From assembly GCA_011390885.1 (NCBI GenBank), contig JAABRO010000027.1, positions 1-38,947 on the forward strand: a stretch of 38,947 bases of DNA, written 5' to 3'. Below are positions 5,495-37,164 of the stretch, in pieces (position 1 is the stretch's first letter; each line of letters opens with the position of its first letter). Below the pieces are notes generated by a model. The model did no database searches and was not told the DNA's origin. It saw nothing but the letters and a program-made list of their open reading frames with translations. The position numbers and the translations under genes are program-made. The DNA comes from Gemmatimonas sp. (lineage in GTDB: Bacteria > Gemmatimonadota > Gemmatimonadetes > Gemmatimonadales > Gemmatimonadaceae).

Positions 5495-7209
5495 TGCCGA
5501 CGCGCGGCCCGGCGCGCTTCCGCCTGCTTCACGGCCTCGTACGCGTTCACAATGCCACCCGTGGCCGAGAGGTCGCCGAAACGCACGCGCGCCGTGGGCG
5601 GCGCGCCCGGGGGCTGCACCTGCACGTCGCCCAGCTTCGTGACCGACGACAGCAGGATCTGCCTCACGTCGGCGGCGGTGAGCTCCGGGTAGTACGCCAT
5701 GAGCAGCGCGGCCACGCCACTCACGACCGGCGCCGCCATGCTCGTGCCGCTCTGCCGCTCGTACTTGCTCCCGGGCACGGCCGAGTAGATGTCTTCGCCC
5801 GGTGCGAACAGGTCCACCATCGTCTTGCCGTAGTTCGAGAAGGGCGCGGCGAGCGACGTGCCACCCTTCCACGAGCTTGCCCCCACCTCGATCCAGAGCG
5901 AGGCGCGCCGGCCGTCGGTCAACTTGGGGGTGGGGAAGTTGGGCGTCTCGTCGATGTTTTCGGCGTCGTTGCCCGCCGCATGCACGAGCAGCACGCCCTT
6001 GCTCTCGGCGTAGCGCACCGCGTCGTCCACCAGCGCCTTCTCGGGCGAGTAGCCCTTGCCGAAGCTCATGTTGATGATGTGCGCGCCGTTGTCCACCGCG
6101 TAGCGGATGGCGTTGGCCACGTCCTTGTCGCGCTCGTCGCCGTCGGGCACCGCGCGCACGCCCATGATGCGCACGCCGTTGGTCACGCCGTCGAGCCCTT
6201 CGCCGTTGCCGCGCACGGCGGCGATGATGCCCGCCACATGCGAGCCGTGCTTGGCATCGGGACCGGCGATGTCGCTGTTGCCGTACGTGCGCTGCGCACC
6301 GTTGGCGTAGTCGTCACCCACGATGCCGCGCGGGTTGAACAGCGTGTCGAGGCCGTACTTCGCCTGGCTGCCGTAGGCCTCGCGTGCCTCCTCGAGCATC
6401 GCGGGACCGATGCCGTTGGCGTCGAGCTGCAGGAAGAGCTGCTTCGCCTGCGAGACCTGCGGGTTGGTGGTGCTCAGCGCTTCGACGCTGGCCTTGGTGA
6501 GCTCGCCCGGGATGGCGGTGCGCAGCACGCGCACCGCGCCGTCGAGCGCGCGGCCGATGTTCTCGATCTGGCCGAGCGTCTGGACGACCTCCGTGCGCTT
6601 CTCCGCGTAGGCCTCGGCGATGTCCGTGCACGACTTCGTGCGCTCCGCGTTCGCCATGCCGCCGTTGCGACGCTCGGCACCGCACGCCGCGTAGAGACGC
6701 GTGAGTTCGAAGGTGTCGTGATGCACGTTGTCGCCATTCGCGCCACCAATGAAGTTCCAGCCGCGCAGGTCGTCGGCGTAGCCGTTCCCGTCGTCGTCAC
6801 GGCCCGTGCCGCCGCGCTCGCCGTCGTTGCTCCAGAGCACGCCGCGCAGGTCGACGTGGGCGGTGTCGATGCCGCCGTCGATCACGGCCACGACCACGGT
6901 GCGCCCCGGCGTGCGGCCGGCGAGCAGCTCGCGCAACGCGCGCTCCGATCCGGTGCCGGCGATGCCGTCGGTGGCGAGGTCCTGGAGCTGCCAGTTGACC
7001 GGCGACTCGGTGAGCGTCTGCGCACGCGGCGGGGCGACGGGCGCGCTGGGCGCCGCGGGGCGTGCTGCGACCGGTGCCGGCGCGGTGGACGGCGACGACG
7101 CAGGCGCACAGGCGGCCAGCGCGCCGAGCACGAAGGCGGACGCCACGAGGCGCGTGGAGCGGACGGGCAGGGGCATGCGGAGGCTCACGAGGTCACGGGT
7201 CACAGTCAC
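5491..7209 (-). CDS. S8 family serine peptidase (subtilase), probable lipoprotein
   Basis: Secreted subtilisin-like protease. The N-terminus has a lipoprotein signal ending LGALAAC (Cys34 counted from GTG 7209). The catalytic triad is visible: Asp111 in VVAVIDGGID, His321 in HGSHVAGI and Ser490 in SGTSMAAP, with the oxyanion Asn in HAAGND. Unusually, about 210 residues separate Asp and His, far more than the 30-40 of classical subtilisins; the insert is helical and charged and has two cysteines. GTG 7209 overlaps the YciI stop as GTGA, as occurs elsewhere in this genome; ATG 7176 is the alternative and gives a shorter signal peptide. No obvious propeptide domain is seen. It is translationally coupled to the genes on both sides. 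Confidence 0.9.
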   Translation of the reverse strand: MTVTRDLVSLRMPLPVRSTRLVASAFVLGALAACAPASSPSTAPAPVAARPAAPSAPVAPPRAQTLTESPVNWQLQDLATDGIAGTGSERALRELLAGRTPGRTVVVAVIDGGIDTAHVDLRGVLWSNDGERGGTGRDDDGNGYADDLRGWNFIGGANGDNVHHDTFELTRLYAACGAERRNGGMANAERTKSCTDIAEAYAEKRTEVVQTLGQIENIGRALDGAVRVLRTAIPGELTKASVEALSTTNPQVSQAKQLFLQLDANGIGPAMLEEAREAYGSQAKYGLDTLFNPRGIVGDDYANGAQRTYGNSDIAGPDAKHGSHVAGIIAAVRGNGEGLDGVTNGVRIMGVRAVPDGDERDKDVANAIRYAVDNGAHIINMSFGKGYSPEKALVDDAVRYAESKGVLLVHAAGNDAENIDETPNFPTPKLTDGRRASLWIEVGASSWKGGTSLAAPFSNYGKTMVDLFAPGEDIYSAVPGSKYERQSGTSMAAPVVSGVAALLMAYYPELTAADVRQILLSSVTKLGDVQVQPPGAPPTARVRFGDLSATGGIVNAYEAVKQAEARRAARRQ

Positions 7210-7499
7210 AGGCGGTCGAGGTCATCCTGGCCGATCACGGGGAGCCAGGGGAGCAGTTCGTACTGCACGAGGCCGAGCTGGTGGAACGGGTCGCCGTCGC
7301 GCACACGATCGAGCGCTGCGTGCGGCTGCTCGTCGGGGACGCGCAGCAGCAGGCCGCCGCCGGTGCGCGGGTCGAACGGGCCGGAGGCGAGCAGGACCCC
7401 GTTGGACTTGAGACCCCGCAGGTAGGCCCGGTGTGCCTCGAGGTGCGGGGCAAGGGTGTCGAGCGGGTAGCGGTAGCGGAGGATGGCGAGGGCGTACAT
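7206..7499 (-). CDS. YciI family protein
   Basis: Small cytoplasmic protein of the YCII-related family (ferredoxin-like fold; function generally unknown, sometimes enzymatic or regulatory). The 97 residues are the normal size. Family features are the conserved His in HLEAHRAYL, the SGPFDPRTGGGLLL segment and the C-terminal DPFHQLGLVQYELLPW. ATG at 7499 gives the canonical MYALAILRY start; the upstream extension to 7550 reads into intergenic sequence. It is the first gene of the operon with the subtilase and the VTT protein, and its stop overlaps the subtilase start. Confidence 0.85.
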   Translation of the reverse strand: MYALAILRYRYPLDTLAPHLEAHRAYLRGLKSNGVLLASGPFDPRTGGGLLLRVPDEQPHAALDRVRDGDPFHQLGLVQYELLPWLPVIGQDDLDRL

Positions 7500-7564
7500 G
7501 GGGGTTGGTATGGGTTTCCGAAAGCTCGCGGGCGGCAGCCTGCGGGCCAAGGGTGTGGTGCGGT

Positions 7565-7715
7565 TGAACCCTCGGAACTCGTGCCTCGCCGCTTCCCGCT
7601 CGGGTCCGCTCCGTGTGATCGACGCAAGAGCGCCTGCGACCGCTTCGACTCGGGGCAGCCATCGCGTGGCACGGACCCGAGCGAGAAGCCGCGAGCCGCG
7701 AGTCTCGGGGGTTCA
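7565..7715. repeat. 150-bp long-hairpin intergenic repeat, copy P2
   Basis: Second copy of the TGAACC...GGTTCA element, here between two divergent genes (YciI to the left, four-helix-bundle protein to the right). Left arm TGAACCCTCGGAACTCG and right arm CTCGGGGGTTCA pair over roughly 55 positions with about a fifth mismatched. The shared block GCTCGGGTCCG and the central GCAAGAGCGCC..CGACCGCTT correspond to copy P1. It therefore lies in the 5' leader or promoter area of one or both neighbours. Confidence 0.8.
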
Positions 7716-7786
7716 AAGAAATCGCATGATTCCGGCCGCAGTGGATTGATGGTGCTTCGCGAGCGCCGCGACCCTAGGCTGCCCTC

Positions 7787-8179
7787 ATGCGCGACTATCG
7801 ACACCTCACCGCCTGGCAGCGCGCCCACGCGCTCACGCTGGCCGTCTTCCGCTGCACCGACCGGGGCGGGCGACACGGGCCGCCAGGACTCGTGAGCCAG
7901 GTTCGCCGCGCGGTCATGACGATTCCGACCAACATCGCCGAAGGGTGCGGGCACGATTCGCGCCGCGAGTTCGCGCGGTATCTCGCGATCGCTGCCGCGT
8001 CGGCGGTGGAACTCGAGTACCTGCTGCGTTTGGGGCACGACCTCGGGGTCATCGACGCGACGCATCACGAGACGCTGAGTGCCGAGACCGTCGCCGTGCG
8101 CCGCATGTGCCGCGGCCTGCGCGCGCGACTGCTGCACGATGAGCATCTCGCGGGCCCACCGTCCATCCGAGCGCAGTGA
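7787..8179 (+). CDS. Four helix bundle protein (23S rRNA-intervening-sequence-protein family)
   Basis: Cytoplasmic four-helix-bundle protein related to those encoded by 23S rRNA intervening sequences and, in many genomes, by free-standing genes of unknown function. The 130 residues show the family pattern: an N-terminal DYRHLTAWQRAHALTLAVF, QVRRAVMTIPTNIAEGCG, the RREFARYLAIAAASAVELEYLL helix and a last helix near residue 100-115. ATG 7787 is clear; a TAGGCT hexamer lies 6 bases upstream and may be a -10 box of a leaderless mRNA. There is no rRNA nearby. The stop codon TGA at 8177-8179 is the first triplet of repeat copy P3. Confidence 0.85.
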   Translation: MRDYRHLTAWQRAHALTLAVFRCTDRGGRHGPPGLVSQVRRAVMTIPTNIAEGCGHDSRREFARYLAIAAASAVELEYLLRLGHDLGVIDATHHETLSAETVAVRRMCRGLRARLLHDEHLAGPPSIRAQ

Positions 8180-8329
8180 ATCCCACGCGACTCGCGGCTC
8201 GCCGCTTCCTGCTCGGGTCCGTTCCGCGCGATGGTCGCAATCAGCGCGAGCGTGCGCCCAACCACTTGGCAGCCATCACACCAAACGGACCCGAGCGGGA
8301 AGCGGCGAGCCGCGAGTCGCGTGGGTTCA
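8177..8329. repeat. 150-bp long-hairpin intergenic repeat, copy P3 (best paired)
   Basis: Third copy. The arms TGAATCCCACGCGACTCG and the complement of CGCGAGTCGCGTGGGTTCA pair almost without error for about 47 bases, apart from a one-base bulge and one mismatch. The outer arm sequence differs from P1 and P2 yet keeps pairing, so changes are compensatory. The inner GCTCGGGTCCGTT block is conserved. Its first three bases are the stop codon of the four-helix-bundle gene. Confidence 0.85.
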
Positions 8330-8338
8330 AGAGCAGTC

Positions 8339-8359
8339 ACCCCCGCGAGCCTCGGGGGT
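8339..8359. terminator. Short hairpin between convergent genes
   Basis: ACCCCCG and CGGGGGT flank a 7-base loop, ten bases before the end of the minus-strand sufU gene. There is no T-tract. The sequence CGAGCCTCGGGGGTTCAA nearly repeats the right end of copy P2, so this may be a solo terminal fragment of the hairpin family that doubles as a terminator for the suf operon. Confidence 0.45.
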
Positions 8360-8369
8360 TCAACGAACC

Positions 8370-8810
8370 TCAGCCTTCCAGCGCATCCCCCAGCGCCAGC
8401 CACGCCATGCGCGCGCACCCCACCCGCTGCGGATACCTTGCCACCCCCGCCAGCGCGCGCAGGTCTCCCTCGAGCCCCTCAACTGCCTCCCCGCGCAGCA
8501 TCGCCTCCACGGCCGTCGCCATCGCCTTCACCTCCGCCACCGACCGTCCGCGCACCGCCTCCGTCAGCATCGATGCCGACGCGGTGGCGATGGAGCACCC
8601 CTGCCCGTCGAACCCCACCTCGGCGATGCGGTCCCCGTCGAGCAGCACACCCACGCTGATCGCATCGCCGCACAGCGGGTTCTTGCGCGCGCCCACACGC
8701 ACGCCCGGAGCCGCCGGCACCCCGCGGCCGTGTGGCGCGCGGTAGTGCTGCAGGATCAGCTCCTGGTACATGGCCGACAGTGACGCAGGCAGACCGGACG
8801 GCGCGGTCAT
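8370..8810 (-). CDS. sufU: SufU/IscU-family Fe-S cluster assembly protein, second copy (last suf gene)
   Basis: Scaffold or sulfur-transfer protein that accepts persulfide sulfur from SufS. The three family cysteines are C47 in NPLCGD, C72 in GQGCSIATASAS and C132 in VGCARMAW, with the metal-ligand Asp49. The length is 146 residues; the inserted region between the second and third cysteines is of SufU rather than IscU type. ATG 8810 gives MTAPSGLPASLSAMYQELIL; the longer frame upstream overlaps sufS and has no homology. It lies 13 bases after sufS and closes the operon. A paralogue sits at 10493-10954, so the two may divide Zn-dependent sulfur transfer and scaffold roles. Confidence 0.88.
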   Translation of the reverse strand: MTAPSGLPASLSAMYQELILQHYRAPHGRGVPAAPGVRVGARKNPLCGDAISVGVLLDGDRIAEVGFDGQGCSIATASASMLTEAVRGRSVAEVKAMATAVEAMLRGEAVEGLEGDLRALAGVARYPQRVGCARMAWLALGDALEG

Positions 8811-8823
8811 TCGCCGGCCCTGG

Positions 8824-10092
8824 TCAGTCGGCGACCGAGGCGAAGATCCGTTGCGCCTCGACCAGTGCGTGCACCAGGGCGTCCACGTCACTCGCGTCGC
8901 TGTACACGTAGAAGCTGGCGCGCGCGGTGGCGCTCGTGCCGAGGCGGCGCATGAGCGGCTGCGCGCAGTGGTGACCGGCGCGAATGCACACGCCGTGCTG
9001 GTCGAGGATCGTGGCCAGGTCGTGCGGATGCACGTCGGCGAGCGTGAAGCTCAGCACGCCGCTGCGCTGCTCGGGGGGCGGGCCGTAGATCGTGAGCCCG
9101 TCGAGCCCGGCCAGCTTCTCGTGGGCCGACCGCAGCAGCGCCAGCTCGTGCTCACGCACGGCGCGCATGTCGAGCGCCTCGAGGTAGCGCACGGCGGCGG
9201 CGAGCCCCACCGCATCGGCGGCGTTCGGCGTGCCGGCCTCGAAGCGGTGCGGCAGTACGTTCCAGGTGCTGTCGTGGTCGTTCACCCACTCGATCATGTC
9301 GCCGCCGAACTGCCACGGCTGGCACTCGAGCCAGCGCGCGCGCGTGCCGAGCACGCCGCCGATGCCCATGGGGCCGAGCAGCTTGTGGCCGCTGAAGGCG
9401 TAGAAGTCCACGCCGAGCGTGTCGAACGCCACCGGCAGGTGCGGCGCACCCTGCGCGCCGTCGAGCACGATGATGGCCGGCGAGGTCTCGCGCACCAGCC
9501 GCACCACCTCGGCCACCGGCGTGATGGAGCCCACCGCGTTGGACACATGCGTGATCGCGACCACACGCGTGCGCGGCGTGAGCAGCGCGGCCAGATGGTC
9601 GAGGTCGATGCGCTGGTCGGCGGTGAGCTCCACGATGCGCAGATGCGCACCGGTGCGTTTCGCCAGCTGCTGCCAGGGCACGAAGTTGGCGTGGTGCTCG
9701 AGTGCGGTGATCACGATCTCGTCACCCTCGCGCACGTGCGCCGCGCCCCACGCATTGGCCACCAGGTTCATGGCCTCGGTGGTGCCGCGCGTGAACACGA
9801 GCGTGTCTGCGTCCTTCGCGCCCAGGAAGCGCGCCACCGTCTCCCGCGCACCGGCGTACGCATCGGTGGCTGCCGCTGCGAGTGCGTACGCACCGCGGTG
9901 CGGATTGGCGTTGGCCGTGGTGTAGAAGTTCGTGAGTGCGTCGAGCACGACCTGCGGCTTCTGCGACGTGGCCGCCGAGTCGAGGTAGTGCAGCGCGGGC
10001 TGCGCTGCGAGCAGCGGAAAGTCCGCGCGCGGCGCGAGCGATGCGAGCGAGCTGTCCGCGCCGAGCGCGTCGAGAACTGGGGTGGCCGTCAT
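8824..10092 (-). CDS. sufS: Cysteine desulfurase SufS
   Basis: PLP enzyme that removes sulfur from cysteine as an enzyme-bound persulfide for Fe-S cluster building in the cytoplasm. Its 422 residues are typical. The PLP lysine is K237 in YAFSGHKLLGPMG. The persulfide cysteine is C376 in RAGHHCAQPLMRRL, and the short loop around it marks the class II (SufS) type. EHHANFVPWQ and the DGAQGAPH Asp/His pair are also present. ATG 10092 overlaps the stop of the upstream Rieske gene (ATGA), indicating translational coupling. It is directly followed by a sufU copy, its expected partner. Confidence 0.95.
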   Translation of the reverse strand: MTATPVLDALGADSSLASLAPRADFPLLAAQPALHYLDSAATSQKPQVVLDALTNFYTTANANPHRGAYALAAAATDAYAGARETVARFLGAKDADTLVFTRGTTEAMNLVANAWGAAHVREGDEIVITALEHHANFVPWQQLAKRTGAHLRIVELTADQRIDLDHLAALLTPRTRVVAITHVSNAVGSITPVAEVVRLVRETSPAIIVLDGAQGAPHLPVAFDTLGVDFYAFSGHKLLGPMGIGGVLGTRARWLECQPWQFGGDMIEWVNDHDSTWNVLPHRFEAGTPNAADAVGLAAAVRYLEALDMRAVREHELALLRSAHEKLAGLDGLTIYGPPPEQRSGVLSFTLADVHPHDLATILDQHGVCIRAGHHCAQPLMRRLGTSATARASFYVYSDASDVDALVHALVEAQRIFASVAD

Positions 10093-28985: not shown

Positions 28986-29924
28986 TCACTCGGCGGGCGC
29001 GGGTGGTGCGACGCGTCGCACGAGCTGGAACACGTCTGGACGCGCGTAGTGTCCCGTCACGTCGAGGTCGAGCTTCGCGCGCACCGTCTCGCCGAGGTCG
29101 AGGTCGGCCACGAGCAGCGCGTCCTCGTCGTACACCGGTCCGGCGATGACTTCGCCATACGGGTTCACGATGCAGCTGCCTCCCCGCGTGATCACCGTGT
29201 CGGCGGGCACGTCGGGTTCGAGCGGATAGTCGGCGGGATAGTCGTGCCGCCGCGCGCACTGGTTGGCGGAGAGCACGAAGCAGCGCCCCTCCATGGCCAC
29301 GTGTCGCACGGTGGCGATCCACGACTCGCGACTGTCGGCGGTGGGCGCGAGCCAGAGCTGCACGCCATCCTCGTACAGCGCGGTGCGCAGCAGCGGCATG
29401 TAATGCTCCCAGCACACCGCTGCACCCAGCACGCCAACCGCGGTGGGCACGGCGCGCACCGACGCACCATCACCCTGCGCCCACACGATGCGCTCCGCTG
29501 CGGTGGGCACGAGCTTGCGGTGCACGTGCAGCAGCGTGCCGTCGGGACCGTACAGGCACACGCTGCAGTACAGCGAGCCGCCGGCGCGTTCGATCACGCC
29601 GATGGCCAGATGCAGCGCGTGCTCCTGCGCGATGGCGCCGAGCCGGGCGGCGTCGGGCCCTGAGAGGTCCACGCTCGAGGCCCAGTAACGCGCGTACCAG
29701 GCGCGACCGGCGTCGCTCCGGCTGCCGATCACGGTGCCGAAGGTGAGGCCGCGCGGATACGCGCTGACGAAGGCCTCGGGGAAGAGCACGAGCTCGGCGC
29801 CGCGCGCGGCGGCCGACGCCACGTGCGCGCGCACGCGGTCGAGCGTGGCGTCGAGGTCGAAGGCGACAGGCGCGGCCTGCACCACGGCCACGCGCACGGT
29901 GCGGGTCAGGGGCGGAAAGGGCAT
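28986..29924 (-). CDS. Carbon-nitrogen hydrolase, nitrilase type
   Basis: Cytoplasmic nitrilase-superfamily enzyme of 312 residues, predicted to convert nitriles to acids (or amides). The catalytic triad is E50 in LVLFPEAFVSAYP, K137 in VHRKLVPT and C171 in GAAVCWEHYMPLLR. The CWEHYMPLLR context and the HRKLxPT spacing are those of true nitrilases rather than amidases. The C-terminal region includes GGSCIVNPYGEVIAGP. ATG 29924 gives MPFPPLTRTVRVAVVQAAP. It lies 33 bases after cysM on the same strand and may be co-transcribed with it. Confidence 0.9.
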   Translation of the reverse strand: MPFPPLTRTVRVAVVQAAPVAFDLDATLDRVRAHVASAAARGAELVLFPEAFVSAYPRGLTFGTVIGSRSDAGRAWYARYWASSVDLSGPDAARLGAIAQEHALHLAIGVIERAGGSLYCSVCLYGPDGTLLHVHRKLVPTAAERIVWAQGDGASVRAVPTAVGVLGAAVCWEHYMPLLRTALYEDGVQLWLAPTADSRESWIATVRHVAMEGRCFVLSANQCARRHDYPADYPLEPDVPADTVITRGGSCIVNPYGEVIAGPVYDEDALLVADLDLGETVRAKLDLDVTGHYARPDVFQLVRRVAPPAPAE

Positions 29925-29957
29925 GCGGGGAATCTCGCCGACGGAGCCGCCCCGCGC

Positions 29958-30878
29958 TCAGCCGAAGAGGCCGGTGCTCAGGTAGCGATCGCCGCGGTCA
30001 CACACGATGAACACGATCGTGGCGTGCTCGACTTCCTGCGCCACGCGCAGTGCGATGGCGCACGCGCCCGCCGCCGATGGGCCGCAGAAGATGCCCTCGA
30101 CCTCCGCGAGGCGCCGGGCCATGGCCTCGGCCTCAGCCTGCGAGATCGCCTCGGTCCGGTCCACGCGCGCCGCGTCGAAGATGCGCGGCTGGTAGGCCTC
30201 GCCCCACTTCCGGATACCCGGGATTTGCGAGCCCTCGGCCGGCTGCGCACCCACGATCGTGATGTGCGGGTTCTGCTCCTTGAGGTAGCGCCCCGCGCCC
30301 ATGATGGTGCCCGTGGTGCCCATGGCGCTCACGAAGTGCGTGATGCGCCCGTTGGTGTCGCGCCAGATCTCCGGGCCGGTGGTCTCGTAGTGCGCGCGCG
30401 GGTTGTCGGGGTTGGCGAACTGGTCGAGCACGCGTCCCTCGCCGCGCGCCGCCATCTCGGCGGCCAGGTCGCGCGCGTATTCCATGCCGCCGGCCGAAGC
30501 TGGCGTGAGGATGAGTTCGGCGCCGTACGCGCGCATGGATGCCTGACGCTCGAGGCTCGCGTTGTCGGGCATGATGAGCGTCATGCGATAGCCCTTCATG
30601 GCCGCGATCATCGCGAGCGCGATGCCGGTGTTGCCGCTCGTGGCCTCGATGAGGCGGTCGCCCGGCTTGATCTCGCCGCGCTCCTCGGCGCGGCGGATCA
30701 TGGAGTACACCGGGCGGTCCTTCACCGACCCGCCCGGGTTGTTGCCCTCCAGCTTGCCCAGGATCACCGTGCCGCGTGCGGAGATCTCGGGGCCCGGCAG
30801 GCGCTGCAGGGGAACGAGCGGCGTATTGCCGATCGTGCGGTCGATGCTCGGGTAGTCGGGCGCTGCGTCAATGCTCAT
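29958..30878 (-). CDS. cysM: Cysteine synthase B (O-acetylserine sulfhydrylase)
   Basis: PLP enzyme making L-cysteine from O-acetylserine and sulfide or thiosulfate. The 306 residues read as CysM: IDRTIGNTPLVPLQRLPG, K53 in NNPGGSVKDRP (PLP lysine), EATSGNTGIALAMIAAMKGYRM, GRITHFVSAMGTTGTIMGAGRYLKEQNP and the terminal CDRGDRYLSTGLFG. ATG 30878 is preferred over the TTG two codons upstream. No CymR- or CysB-like site was recognised. Confidence 0.93.
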   Translation of the reverse strand: MSIDAAPDYPSIDRTIGNTPLVPLQRLPGPEISARGTVILGKLEGNNPGGSVKDRPVYSMIRRAEERGEIKPGDRLIEATSGNTGIALAMIAAMKGYRMTLIMPDNASLERQASMRAYGAELILTPASAGGMEYARDLAAEMAARGEGRVLDQFANPDNPRAHYETTGPEIWRDTNGRITHFVSAMGTTGTIMGAGRYLKEQNPHITIVGAQPAEGSQIPGIRKWGEAYQPRIFDAARVDRTEAISQAEAEAMARRLAEVEGIFCGPSAAGACAIALRVAQEVEHATIVFIVCDRGDRYLSTGLFG

Positions 30879-30929
30879 GCGCAATGAACGCGTGTCTGCG
30901 TCCCCGTGTTCACGCTCGGCTGGCGGTTG

Positions 30930-32926: not shown

Positions 32927-34183
32927 CTACCGGTCGCGGCCGCGCGGCGGCTGGCTGCCCATGGCGGCCGCCAGCCGGGCCACATGGCGGGCCGTTCGCT
33001 CCATCGCGATCACGTCCGCGAACTCTCCCGGCTCGCCGCGCGCGCCGCCACGCTCGCCGCCAAGCCCGATGGCCAGCGTGCCCCCCGCGATCGCCACGTT
33101 CAGGTTGGCGGAGCCCGCGTTGCCCAGCCGTGGATCGAGGCCGAGCTGACGCGCGATCGCCACCGACGAGCGCACGAGCCGCGACGTGTCGGCACCGGCG
33201 ATCTGCCCGCCACCGGTGAGCTGCACGGGACGCATGTCGAAGCGCGTGCCCGTTTCGCGTGACACGTCGGCGAGCACCGCCCGCACGGCCTCCTCGTTGC
33301 GCGTGATCTGCTCGGCGCGCAGCGACCGGATGTCGAGCGAGAACCACGCGCTGTCCGGCTTGCGGTTGAACACGTCGCCCGACTGGATCATGGAGATGTT
33401 GAGCACCGTGCGCGTCTCGGCACCGGGCTGCGGCAGGGCGAAGATGCGATCGACGGCGCGCGCGATCCCCTGGTTCACGTTGGGCAGACCGCCGGTGAGT
33501 GAATGCCCGCCGGTGTGGTAGCCCCAGACGCGCCACCAGTGAATGCCCAGCGCACCGTACGTGATGCTGCGTCCGTCGCCGAGCACGTCCACGAAGGCGT
33601 CGGCACGCGCGCGCCAGTCGGCGTACAGTGCCTTCATGCCGAGCAGCCCGGTTTCCTCCTGCGCCACGGCGGCGAACACGAGATCGTGCTCGGGCCGCAC
33701 ACCCGTGGCGAGTAGCGCCTCGGCGGCGGCGAGCATGGCGATGGTGGTGCTCGAGGTGTTGGTGCCGGGGCCGACGACCCGATCGCCCTCCACGAACGGC
33801 GGACGCGGTGCGAGTGCCTGATGTTCGGCCACGGTCGCGAGGTCGTCGAGCGTGGATACGAACACGATCGCGCGCCGCTGAGCATCAGGGAGCGAGCCGC
33901 GGATCAGGCCGATGGCGTTGGGCATGGTGTCGATCGTCACCTCGACGAGGCCGATGGTGCGCATGCGGTCGGCCACCCAGCGCGCGCGTTCCTGCTCCTG
34001 CCCCGAGGGGGAGCGGATGGCGCCGATCTCGGCGAGCGCCGCCGCGTGCGCGGCGCGGCGCCCTGTGATGTGCGCGTCGAGCCGTGTCGCGACGGGAGCA
34101 GGCTGGGCAGGGAGTTGCGCCGCCGTGACGATCGCCGCGGCGAGTGCGAGTGAACGACGACGAAGCCGAAGCAGGGCAGGCAT
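32927..34183 (-). CDS. M20-family-like exported protein lacking key metal ligands (probable pseudoenzyme)
   Basis: Protein of 418 residues with a signal peptide (LALAAAIVTAAQLPAQ) and an overall M20 peptidase architecture, including the GHS-containing lid domain (GYHTGGHSLTGGLPNVN). Active-site positions diverge: the AHLD motif reads STLD (His to Thr111), the GPGxxD motif reads GPGTNT (Asp to Thr143), and the C-terminal His appears as Arg in ERGGARGEPGE. Only the EE pair (E176/E177 in AQEETGLLGM) and a DG remain. The reading frame is intact and long, so this is a maintained protein rather than a pseudogene, perhaps a binding protein. ATG 34183 follows a short gap after the fusion gene. Confidence 0.8.
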   Translation of the reverse strand: MPALLRLRRRSLALAAAIVTAAQLPAQPAPVATRLDAHITGRRAAHAAALAEIGAIRSPSGQEQERARWVADRMRTIGLVEVTIDTMPNAIGLIRGSLPDAQRRAIVFVSTLDDLATVAEHQALAPRPPFVEGDRVVGPGTNTSSTTIAMLAAAEALLATGVRPEHDLVFAAVAQEETGLLGMKALYADWRARADAFVDVLGDGRSITYGALGIHWWRVWGYHTGGHSLTGGLPNVNQGIARAVDRIFALPQPGAETRTVLNISMIQSGDVFNRKPDSAWFSLDIRSLRAEQITRNEEAVRAVLADVSRETGTRFDMRPVQLTGGGQIAGADTSRLVRSSVAIARQLGLDPRLGNAGSANLNVAIAGGTLAIGLGGERGGARGEPGEFADVIAMERTARHVARLAAAMGSQPPRGRDR

Positions 34184-34195
34184 GGATCGATCGGT

Positions 34196-35668
34196 TCAGG
34201 TGTCGGAGACCAGTGCGTCCGCCTCGATCTCCACGAGGTACTCGTCGCCCACGAGCGCGGCCTGCACGAGCGTGTTCGCGGGCTGGATGTGCCCGAAGCG
34301 TTCGCCGTGCACACGCGCCACGGCCTCCCAGTCGGCCATGTGGCGCACGAACACGCGCGTGCGGATCACGTCGTCGAGCCGAGCGCCGAGCGCCTGCAGC
34401 GCACCGGTGATCTTGTCGATGATGGCGTGCGCCTGCGCAGCGGGATCGCTGCCGCCGATCACGCGCGATCCGTGCGTGGCCGTGGTGCCCGACACGGAGA
34501 TGGTGTCGCCCACGCGCATGGCGCGCGCGTAGCCCGCGTCGCGCTCCCACACCGTGCCCGAGAGCACGCGCCGCCGGCCGTTCGCGTCTATCCGCACCGG
34601 ATATGGTGACGGGAACGACGCCACGTGGTGCGACAGGTCGCCGGAGGCCGTGAGAAACGGCGGAACGCGGTACTCGTCGCCGGGTTCGCCCGGCAGCGGC
34701 GACAGCGTGGCGACCGCGGCCTCGAGTTCGGCGTGATCCTCGTCGGTGAGCTCGAAGGCGAACAATCGCAGCGTGTCGTCGATGTGCTCGCTGCTGCCGA
34801 GGCGCGCCCCGATGATGATGCCGCCCACCGCAGGCTGCTCGAGCACGTAGCGGCAGGCCACGTTGGCAATCGACACGCCATGCCGATCGGCGACGGTGCG
34901 CGCGGCCTGCAGCACGCGCTGCAGTCCGTCCCAGCCGCCGGCGGTGCGCACGAATCGGCCGTACTTCATCTGCGACCACGTTTCGAGCGCGGCCCAGTCG
35001 GGCTCGGCGCGATCGAGCCAGCGGTCGCTGAGGAACCCGCCGGCCACGGTGCCGTAGGCAAGCAGCGAGACGCCCTGCTGCAGGGCGTACGCCGCCATGC
35101 GCGAGCGCGGCCGCCGGTCGAGCAGCGACCAGCACACCTGGTTGCTCACGATCGGGATGCCGCTCGCGCGCGCCACGCGCAGGTGCGCGGTGTCGGTGTT
35201 GGTGAGGCCGAGCTGCGCGATCAGTCCTTCCTGGCGGAGCTCGTCGAGCCAGAAGAGCGCGTCGAGCCAGGCCGGGTCGGCGTAGTTCCAGGCATGGAAC
35301 TGCATGAGGTCCACGCGCGTGCGCTGCAGCCGATCGAGGGCGCGCTGCACCGAGGTGCGCACATCGGCGCGTGTGAGCGGGCCGGGGCTCGGCACCCACT
35401 TGGTGAGCAGCTGCACATCCTCGCGCGGTGCGCGGCCGCCGGCGAAGCGCCCCGCGATCAGTTCGGCCGAGCCGTAGTGGTCGGCCATGTCGAACGTGGT
35501 GAGTCCGCGCTCCGCGTAGGCGGCCATCGAGGCCGCCGCGACGTCGTGGTCGAGCGAGCGGCCATCGCGCTCGAGGTCGGCCACCTGCCACAGCCCCGTC
35601 AGCACGCGGGAGATGGTGAGGCCGGGCGCGATCGTGTGGCGGGGCACCGATGTCGTGGACATGGTCAT
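34196..35668 (-). CDS. Fusion of aldo/keto reductase and RidA (YjgF) domains
   Basis: A 490-residue two-domain protein. The N-terminal part (about 10-335) is an aldo-keto reductase with Asp60/Tyr65 (TTFDMADHYG), Lys90 (LLTKWVP) and His125 (MQFHAWNY), the complete catalytic tetrad, and NADPH-binding text near GARLGSSEHIDDTL. The C-terminal part (about 355-490) is a RidA-type imine/enamine deaminase domain (VSGTTATHG, IIDKITGALQALGARLDDVIRTRVFV, ANTLVQAALVGDEYLVEIEADA). Lacking DNA breaks or a frame change between them, it is one polypeptide. ATG 35668 overlaps the APC permease stop (ATGA), suggesting a pathway that imports and processes an amine or amino acid. Confidence 0.88.
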   Translation of the reverse strand: MTMSTTSVPRHTIAPGLTISRVLTGLWQVADLERDGRSLDHDVAAASMAAYAERGLTTFDMADHYGSAELIAGRFAGGRAPREDVQLLTKWVPSPGPLTRADVRTSVQRALDRLQRTRVDLMQFHAWNYADPAWLDALFWLDELRQEGLIAQLGLTNTDTAHLRVARASGIPIVSNQVCWSLLDRRPRSRMAAYALQQGVSLLAYGTVAGGFLSDRWLDRAEPDWAALETWSQMKYGRFVRTAGGWDGLQRVLQAARTVADRHGVSIANVACRYVLEQPAVGGIIIGARLGSSEHIDDTLRLFAFELTDEDHAELEAAVATLSPLPGEPGDEYRVPPFLTASGDLSHHVASFPSPYPVRIDANGRRRVLSGTVWERDAGYARAMRVGDTISVSGTTATHGSRVIGGSDPAAQAHAIIDKITGALQALGARLDDVIRTRVFVRHMADWEAVARVHGERFGHIQPANTLVQAALVGDEYLVEIEADALVSDT

Positions 35669-37164
35669 TCGGGCGGAAGCGTGGCGAACTGCGCGTCAAC
35701 GTCGACGCCGCGGCGCGACAGCGCGGCGCGTTCACGGAGGTAGATGAGTGAGGCGGCGGTGAGCACCAGCAGCCACACCGGCGTGCTGTGAAAGTACCAT
35801 GCCTCGACCGAGGCGTTGAGGTCCTTGACCACGTGCACCAGCAGCAGGCCGCCGGTGAGCAGCAGGGCGCTGGCCGCCACGGGCACACGGAGCGCGGCCG
35901 AACGCATCACGGTCACCTCCGCGGCCAGCGCTGGATTGCGACGCGGCAGCGTGAGCACGGTGAGCGCCATGAGCGCGTAGGTGACCAGCATGGAGGTCAC
36001 GAGGATGTCCACGCCGAGAAAGAAGTCGCCGGCCACGTGGCTGCCGATGATGGAGATGGACGCCACGACGGCGCTCGCCACGATCGCCACATGGGGGGTG
36101 CGCCAGGTCGTGTGCACGCGCGCGAACACGCGCGGGAAGATGCCGTCGTCGGCCCACGCGAACATGAGCCGCGAGACGGCGAGCAGCATGGCGGGCAGGT
36201 CGTTGATGAGCGCAACCGCCGCGCCGGCCACGATCGCCACCGTCCAGCCGGGTGAGAGCAGGTAGCCGAGCAGCCCCGGGGCCGTCACGTCACGCACGAG
36301 CGCCTGCTCGGCCACGTACTGCCACGGCACCGCATGGTACACGGCCGCCGTGAAGAGCATGTAGTACGCGCCCACCGACAGCACGGCAATGCCGATCGCC
36401 AGCGGCAGGTTGCGCGACGGGTTGCGTGCCTCGCCGCCCGCCTGCGCGATGGAGTCGAAGCCGATGAATGACGCGAACAGCACGGGGGTGGCCGCGAGCA
36501 GCGTGAGCAGCCCGGGCGCATCGCGCGTGACCGTGGGGATCGCGCGTCCCTCGCGCGCCAGGAGTGCCGCGGCGAAGTCGGTGTGGTTGTGCGTGAACCC
36601 GGCCACGATCACGACGCCGCCGAGCAGGAACATGAGCACCATGAGCGGCACGAGCAGCTTCTCGTAGAGCTGCGTGCCGCGCAGGTTCACGAGCACGAAC
36701 GTCCACAGCACCGCCAGCGCGATCAGGGGGCGCGCGACCGGTCCGTCGAGCGTGGCCGCCAGCGAGGTAAGCCCCAGAGGCAACGCGGCGTCGCGCAGAA
36801 AGGCCGGGATGACATACGAGACCACGCCGATCGCGATCGACAGCCCGAACCACTGCGAGAACGACGCCACGAAGCCGAGGTACGGGGAGAGCCCGCGCGA
36901 CGCATAGATGTAGCTGCCACCGGCGCGGGGCATCGCGGACGCGAGCGCGGCGTAGGCGAGCGCGGCGAGCAGCGCGGGCACGGCGGCGATCATGTACGCC
37001 GGCAGCACGAACCCGTCGATGCCCGGGACGTTGCGCTGCATCGTGAACGGAATCGTGTTGATGGCGGCGCCGAGCATGGAACAGATGCCGGTCGCGGCGA
37101 GGCCGACCAGGCCGAGGTGGCGAACGAGCGGCGGGCGGGGCGGCGCGGTGCTGGGAGCGGGCAT
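35665..37164 (-). CDS. APC-family amino acid permease
   Basis: Inner-membrane amino acid or polyamine transporter of 499 residues with about 12-14 hydrophobic helices. The first helix carries the substrate-binding GICSMLGAAIN; helix 6 has the region FASFIGFDSIAQAGGEARNPSRNLPLAI, the APC consensus. A proline/arginine-rich N-terminus precedes the first helix. ATG 37164 is clear. It is translationally coupled to the aldo-keto reductase/RidA gene, so its substrate probably feeds that enzyme. Confidence 0.9.
   Translation of the reverse strand: MPAPSTAPPRPPLVRHLGLVGLAATGICSMLGAAINTIPFTMQRNVPGIDGFVLPAYMIAAVPALLAALAYAALASAMPRAGGSYIYASRGLSPYLGFVASFSQWFGLSIAIGVVSYVIPAFLRDAALPLGLTSLAATLDGPVARPLIALAVLWTFVLVNLRGTQLYEKLLVPLMVLMFLLGGVVIVAGFTHNHTDFAAALLAREGRAIPTVTRDAPGLLTLLAATPVLFASFIGFDSIAQAGGEARNPSRNLPLAIGIAVLSVGAYYMLFTAAVYHAVPWQYVAEQALVRDVTAPGLLGYLLSPGWTVAIVAGAAVALINDLPAMLLAVSRLMFAWADDGIFPRVFARVHTTWRTPHVAIVASAVVASISIIGSHVAGDFFLGVDILVTSMLVTYALMALTVLTLPRRNPALAAEVTVMRSAALRVPVAASALLLTGGLLLVHVVKDLNASVEAWYFHSTPVWLLVLTAASLIYLRERAALSRRGVDVDAQFATLPPE

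Follow-up and report, generated by a model that had tools for sequence, protein, structure and literature searches.

A widespread aldo-keto reductase–Rid fusion linked to an amino-acid permease, with asparagine in place of the RidA arginine and a probable role in uptake and breakdown

On a 38,947-nucleotide stretch of a Gemmatimonas sp. contig (hereafter the window), the gene for a CAT-like APC permease overlaps a gene in which an aldo-keto reductase (AKR) is fused to a Rid domain. Many bacterial phyla have this pair too, which makes an unstudied pathway of uptake and breakdown a more probable setting for it than the known detoxification of imines. We give a probability of roughly 0.55 to the reading that the pair serves a catabolic (or salvage) pathway, as yet uncharacterised, which handles an amino-acid-like compound taken up by the cell, with a Rid half that is not a RidA-type imine deaminase. 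A more specific version, in which the pathway is a widespread and undescribed one of uptake and redox chemistry and the Rid site has been re-tooled (Arg to an invariant Asn, with the Glu kept) for a new AKR-coupled reaction, is tentative and falls somewhat short of even odds. Each domain comes from a known family, and an undescribed pathway possibly lies behind their fusion; the functional labels of all the parts, importer families included, are drawn from sequence families and form the weakest link in the argument.

The earlier note on this DNA had described an AKR/RidA fusion coupled to an APC permease, and the gene structure bears this out: the fusion is one open reading frame of 490 aa, the permease stop and the fusion start share the letters ATGA (35665-35668), and both proteins have clear Pfam matches (Table 1). 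The permease scores 135.2 bits against PF13520 and 95.3 bits against PF00324 (cut-offs 27 and 24.6), and its closest solved chains are CAT4, AdiC and CAT1. Like these it is an APC-family protein by sequence; unlike the CAT/APC references, it falls below every NCBIfam cut-off listed and is linked to the fusion. An M20-type gene starts 12 bases downstream of the fusion and is kept there only in close relatives, the same gene being found in L002 and L031. Other M20-like genes lie behind the fusion in L060, L063 and L078 (the Pfam run covered L078), as does an M55 D-aminopeptidase gene in G154 (L163:6984-7913), a hint that some lineages may use peptide or N-acyl substrates. Elsewhere in the window, at 28986-30884 on the minus strand, is a Nit6803-like nitrilase that scores below its NCBIfam cut-off and adjoins a clear cysteine synthase, CysM. 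The assembly that contains the window amounts to 4.07 Mb; among the matches listed, Gemmatimonas sp. S07.Bin085 is its nearest named relative, at 87% across the fusion. Nine Rid domains, at nine places, occur in this genome, some of them in long open frames (451, 666 and 761 aa), which could be either additional fusions or merely open frames in high-GC DNA.

Table 1. Positions in the window of the permease–fusion pair, its domains and the gene downstream.
Feature	Position	Strand	Basis or remark
CAT-like APC amino-acid permease, 499 aa, first gene of the pair	35665..37164	(-)	PF13520, E 4e-39
AKR::Rid fusion, 490 aa, single ORF	34196..35668	(-)	ATGA overlap with permease stop
AKR domain, aa 23-318	34715..35602	(-)	PF00248 Aldo_ket_red, E 5e-58; tetrad D60/Y65/K90/H125
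Inter-domain segment, aa 327-353, core LTASGDLSHH	34610..34690	(-)	Alignment and predicted structure
Rid domain, aa 378-486, without catalytic Arg	34211..34537	(-)	PF01042 Ribonuc_L-PSP/Rid, E 5.3e-22
Asn465 codon, replacing RidA Arg105	34274..34276	(-)	Alignment
M20-family peptidase/deacylase, possible third gene	32927..34183	(-)	PF01546/PF07687

The AKR half combines the PF00248 barrel with the Asp-Tyr-Lys-His tetrad of the superfamily; the tetrad was matched to solved AKRs by alignment (4xk2), and its columns are at least 97% conserved in the 92 fusion rows drawn from the matches listed. Whole-chain Foldseek comparison likewise returns AKRs as the best matches (4xk2, 1lqa and 7utf), and the solved AKRs in that list are approximately 18-26% identical to the fusion. 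A TIM-barrel AKR with a full tetrad is common to the fusion, MtmW (6ovq), the Polaromonas protein (4xk2) and AKR11B (1pz1). Unlike the solved AKRs, the fusion has a Rid domain at its C-terminus, preceded by a conserved inter-domain segment.

The claim that both enzyme halves retain their key residues is thus correct for the AKR tetrad and fails for the Rid half, where Asn465 occupies the Arg105 position. Against PH0854 and YabJ, this residue aligns with the catalytic Arg; it is Asn in all 92 aligned fusions, which span many phyla, and in 99 of the 100 rows of a larger alignment, the remaining row being unreadable (matches listed in both cases; the 92 rows are 91 loci plus the window, which is the same as L001 and is therefore counted twice). 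Other parts of the site are intact in the same 92 rows of the matches listed: Glu480, the partner or catalytic Glu equivalent to Glu120, is always Glu; position 380, equivalent to Tyr17, is always Tyr or Phe; and Arg382, two positions after it, is always Arg. W374 and Thr396 are also fixed in the fusions among the matches listed. Sixteen unfused Rid relatives, taken from genomes of the same order as the window, have Ser (five), Thr (six), Ala (three) or Cys (two) at the Arg position, and R382 and W374 are kept in the 15 that are readable. The Arg is thus absent across this whole Rid neighborhood, with Asn fixed in the fusion alone. Since the position is invariant in fusions and variable in unfused relatives, the fixed Asn suggests selection for a definite pocket function.

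The domain can be compared with the described Rid groups. It shares with RidA and Rid1-3 (YjgF/YER057c/UK114) the Rid fold, by Foldseek and Pfam, along with the Glu and Tyr/Phe positions equivalent to Glu120 and Tyr17, and differs from them in having Asn465 instead of Arg105 and in sitting behind an AKR rather than being free-standing. The absence of Arg and the retention of Glu are features shared with the Arg-less Rid proteins (Rid4-Rid7), among them Rv2704 (3i7t) and PA3499 (2ig8). When the Rid half is modeled alone, its best Foldseek match is 3i7t (Rv2704, the nearest solved structure, 42%), followed by PH0854 and RutC. The E. coli Rut pathway, a nitrogen-source utilization operon, also includes a Rid-family protein and, to our knowledge, has no AKR. 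That protein, RutC, is reported to be a 3-aminoacrylate deaminase (PMC8113886). In the paper that defines Rid4-7, these groups are termed ‘mysterious’, and the Arg position holds Trp in Rid4 and Rid7 and variable residues in Rid5 and Rid6 (PMC4433059), whereas the Asn of the fusion is fixed.

The predicted structure bears on how the two halves relate. An AlphaFold2 model built from 36 rows has a mean pLDDT of 90 and a pTM of 0.91, and packs the AKR and Rid domains together confidently. Channelling between these halves, as suggested by the earlier note, is hypothetical. The inter-domain segment contains many invariant residues and is among the most conserved parts of the protein; confidence is low at 341-343, a loop that may become ordered upon ligand binding or in an oligomer. 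Conceivably, the Rid half is catalytically dead and has been retained as a trimerization or substrate-gating domain for the AKR. The loss of the catalytic Arg, the highly conserved segment and the confident domain packing would all agree with such a role, as would the reported formation of trimers by Rid proteins (PMC4433059). Lost function should relax the pocket, yet Asn465, Glu480, Arg382 and Thr396 are fixed, and the Arg position varies in the unfused relatives; we therefore regard a dead Rid half as unlikely.

Less likely again is a Rid half that is still an imine or enamine deaminase, in which some other residue, such as the invariant Arg382, takes over the carboxylate. Glu480 and Tyr/Phe380 are indeed kept, and R382 and W374 are invariant, but because R382 is found equally in the unfused Arg-less relatives, it is no marker of a new activity. 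Published work points the same way: imine hydrolysis is tied to the Arg that Rid4-7 lack, the Arg-less Salmonella Rid7 displayed no imine hydrolysis up to 100 uM (PMC4433059), and Arg105 is named as the determinant of deaminase activity (PMC5619798). By that published criterion, the Rid half should not deaminate imines. The earlier note had proposed removal of reactive imines or enamines and had named a missing catalytic arginine as the observation that would count against it; the arginine is missing, and the known RidA mechanism of removal finds no support here. The preferred reading, in which the Asn/Glu pocket has a different task, draws its remaining evidence from the distribution and gene neighborhood of the fusion.

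Near-full-length matches to the fusion, at 58-87% identity, are found at at least 80 contig loci, and the phyla represented among the matches listed include Gemmatimonadota, Bacteroidota, Acidobacteriota, Chloroflexota, KSB1, Planctomycetota, Calditrichota, Pseudomonadota and others. Cultured carriers among them are Algoriphagus ornithinivorans DSM 15282, Runella defluvii DSM 17976 and Neolewinella persica DSM 23188. Homologous fusions at such identities across many phyla led us to reject a chance fusion. In addition, 17 plasmid records match the fusion query over 80% or more of its length, those named among the matches listed being from alphaproteobacterial genera; public plasmid records that list the gene name it ‘aldo/keto reductase’. 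Our search of the open-access literature found no paper on an AKR-Rid fusion, and other spellings of the name may have escaped it. The two locus sets used here share some genomes (L002 and L031, for example, resemble each other), and the counts from the alignments and of linkage still include such duplicates.

Within Gemmatimonadota, 249 genomes of at least 90% completeness were surveyed, and none of the 84 fusion matches looked like two separate genes, so that split genes were rejected as well. The matches that came in two pieces (G066, G071, G079, G092, G121, G170 and G233) each have one reported frame, of 547-877 aa. In genus g64 (G066, G079, G092, G121, G170 and G233), the match breaks near aa 262, as if there were an insert in the AKR barrel. 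Three matches are short (G171, G229 and G230), the one in G229 starting at a contig edge. Recoding of TGA was considered for six genomes of genus g69 flagged ‘1 TGA’ and was rejected: G103 (L153) has an intact ORF of 484 aa, and from this one opened genome we attribute the flag to an edge effect.

The linkage to the permease, which the earlier note had made a test of its proposal, is conserved. Among the matches listed, 72 of 91 loci encode the permease upstream of the fusion and on its strand, and four of the 19 loci without it have <1,000 bases upstream. All nine strong permease matches in an initial set of 60 relatives adjoin the fusion. The association is also reciprocal: the 249 Gemmatimonadota genomes include 84 with the fusion, 73 with the permease and 72 with both, leaving a permease alone in one genome (G253) and a fusion without it in 12. 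Nearly all of these permeases (71/73) share the fusion's strand and are no more than 6 kb away from it, 64/73 being within 250 bp. An exact ATGA overlap is not typical, as the gap is <=3 bases in 11 of the 64 close pairs; in G066, G079, G121 and G170, 0.9-3.9 kb separates permease from fusion. Apart from the permease, the neighbors recurring across the 91 listed loci were only shadow ORFs, which ORF-level lists contain in high-GC loci, and small lineage-bound sets. A search for conserved neighbors in permease-less loci (12 from the listed set plus L043 and L054) led nowhere. When 11 regions from the 12 permease-less Gemmatimonadota genomes were opened, only two had another carrier directly upstream, an SSS symporter (G029) and a short-chain fatty acid transporter (G154).

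In other lineages, the permease is exchanged for a different importer. Seven of eight opened alphaproteobacterial plasmid regions have LivGFHM-type ABC genes in or beside the fusion cluster: the fusion comes immediately after the Liv genes in five regions (L111, L112, L114, L117 and L118, the last having no livM in its gene table) and is near them, not directly behind, in L115 and L116. All seven also carry TIGR04076 and a second AKR, here called AKR2 (tblastn), and six have a GntR regulator, which was not found in L116. In the eighth region, L113 (Antarctobacter), the fusion is surrounded by ABC genes of the polar amino-acid and PotD types, and there is no AKR2. In Neomarinimicrobiota L141, TIGR04076, AKR2, LivG, LivF, LivH, LivM, a substrate-binding protein (SBP) and the fusion fall within 8 kb. 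L058 and L102 carry a different Liv set. On a tree of 91 fusions from the matches listed, the Liv label requires three changes, all three forced by starred branches, and by this mapping Liv-type ABC importers replace the permease in three lineages. The exchange supports the earlier suggestion that an imported amino acid or amine is the source compound. The nearest solved structures to the binding protein are generic Leu/Ile/Val and amino-acid binders. Separately, a Gemmatimonadota contig, L155 (G255:C16), holds LivG, a Liv-type binding protein and TIGR04076 in an arrangement resembling the alphaproteobacterial cluster.

AKR2, a paralogue approximately 40% identical to the AKR half of the fusion, forms a second unit with TIGR04076, which lies <=500 bp from it at 54 of 64 places. 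In Gemmatimonadota, 50 of the 84 genomes with the fusion have AKR2, compared with 6 of the 165 that lack the fusion (Fisher p 4e-23, not corrected for phylogeny). Counted by genus, 18 have the fusion with AKR2/TIGR04076, 10 the fusion alone, 4 AKR2/TIGR04076 alone and 74 neither, giving an odds ratio of 33 (p 6e-10) that takes no account of host phylogeny or transfer. At E 1e-40, with six candidates scored per genome, 34 of the 84 fusion genomes have no AKR2, which may mean that it is optional or that its step is unrelated. A search of 48 genomes with fusion loci outside Gemmatimonadota, leaving out seven such loci and L056, found AKR2 in 21 among the matches listed. TIGR04076 was seen by ORF BLAST at 18 of these 21 loci, the exceptions being L129, L135 and L145; in L140 it is about 6 kb from AKR2. 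Overall, the importer with AKR::Rid and TIGR04076 with AKR2 appear to be scattered in most phyla, whereas Alphaproteobacteria and Neomarinimicrobiota have them brought together around a single ABC importer.

The second unit has carriers of its own. Beside AKR2 in the other phyla are SNF/NSS symporters (8/21) and NhaC-type carriers (8/21; matches listed), and NhaC genes occur at five of nine Gemmatimonadota AKR2 loci, including that of the window's own genome (L119, G000:C61:48000-65000), where TIGR04076-AKR2 and a divergent NhaC-type carrier occupy about 6221-9184. APC and NhaC carriers are capable of export too. In a Lysobacterales locus (L148:3954-8310), TIGR04076-AKR2-NSS is flanked by genes for an FAD-dependent DAO-type oxidoreductase, possibly an amine-oxidizing partner, and a DUF3291 protein. 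No function for TIGR04076 was found in the literature searched; one paper guesses at redox or iron-cluster metabolism (PMC8667426).

These neighborhoods bear on two further explanations. General carbonyl detoxification, with a broad AKR tied to an exporter or importer by history only, would draw on the fact that AKRs are often broad in substrate and on the unlike carbonyls acted upon by the nearest solved AKRs (MtmW, DepB); reciprocal linkage to one permease clade, together with the Liv exchange, points instead to a specific imported compound and makes this explanation improbable. An AKR that acts as a redox-sensing regulatory subunit of the transporter, in the manner of Kv-beta with potassium channels, is scarcely credible: Kv-beta is itself an AKR and among the fold matches, and AKRs of this group adjoin transporters, but the carriers come from unrelated families (APC, ABC, NSS, NhaC, SSS and SCFA), to which one docking mode would be unsuited.

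The preferred reading, an uptake-and-breakdown pathway, would thus combine an amino-acid-like substrate, two redox steps and a re-tooled Rid pocket, as judged from the families of its parts. An importer, usually the CAT-like APC permease and in some lineages a Liv-type ABC system, would bring in the compound, which is likely to be amino-acid-like because the APC, Liv and NSS families have such substrates in common. The AKR half might then oxidize or reduce a hydroxyl or carbonyl group of this compound or its product, and the Rid half, which probably supplies a trimeric core, could bind and process the resulting intermediate through hydrolysis, hydration or tautomerization, its Asn/Glu pocket being made for a group other than an alpha-carboxylate. 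A second redox step could be performed by AKR2 with TIGR04076.

If this is true, it would provide a first function for an Arg-less Rid domain and for TIGR04076. In the fusion, Arg-less Rid chemistry comes partly labeled, by a covalent redox partner and a tie to an importer, and the cluster in Alphaproteobacteria and Neomarinimicrobiota contributes a periplasmic binding protein (L112:1382-2608 in Paroceanicella profunda) that is open to direct ligand screening; together, these features make the role of Arg-less Rid proteins testable. They also carry a warning for annotation, which is that the fusion should not be labeled an imine deaminase.
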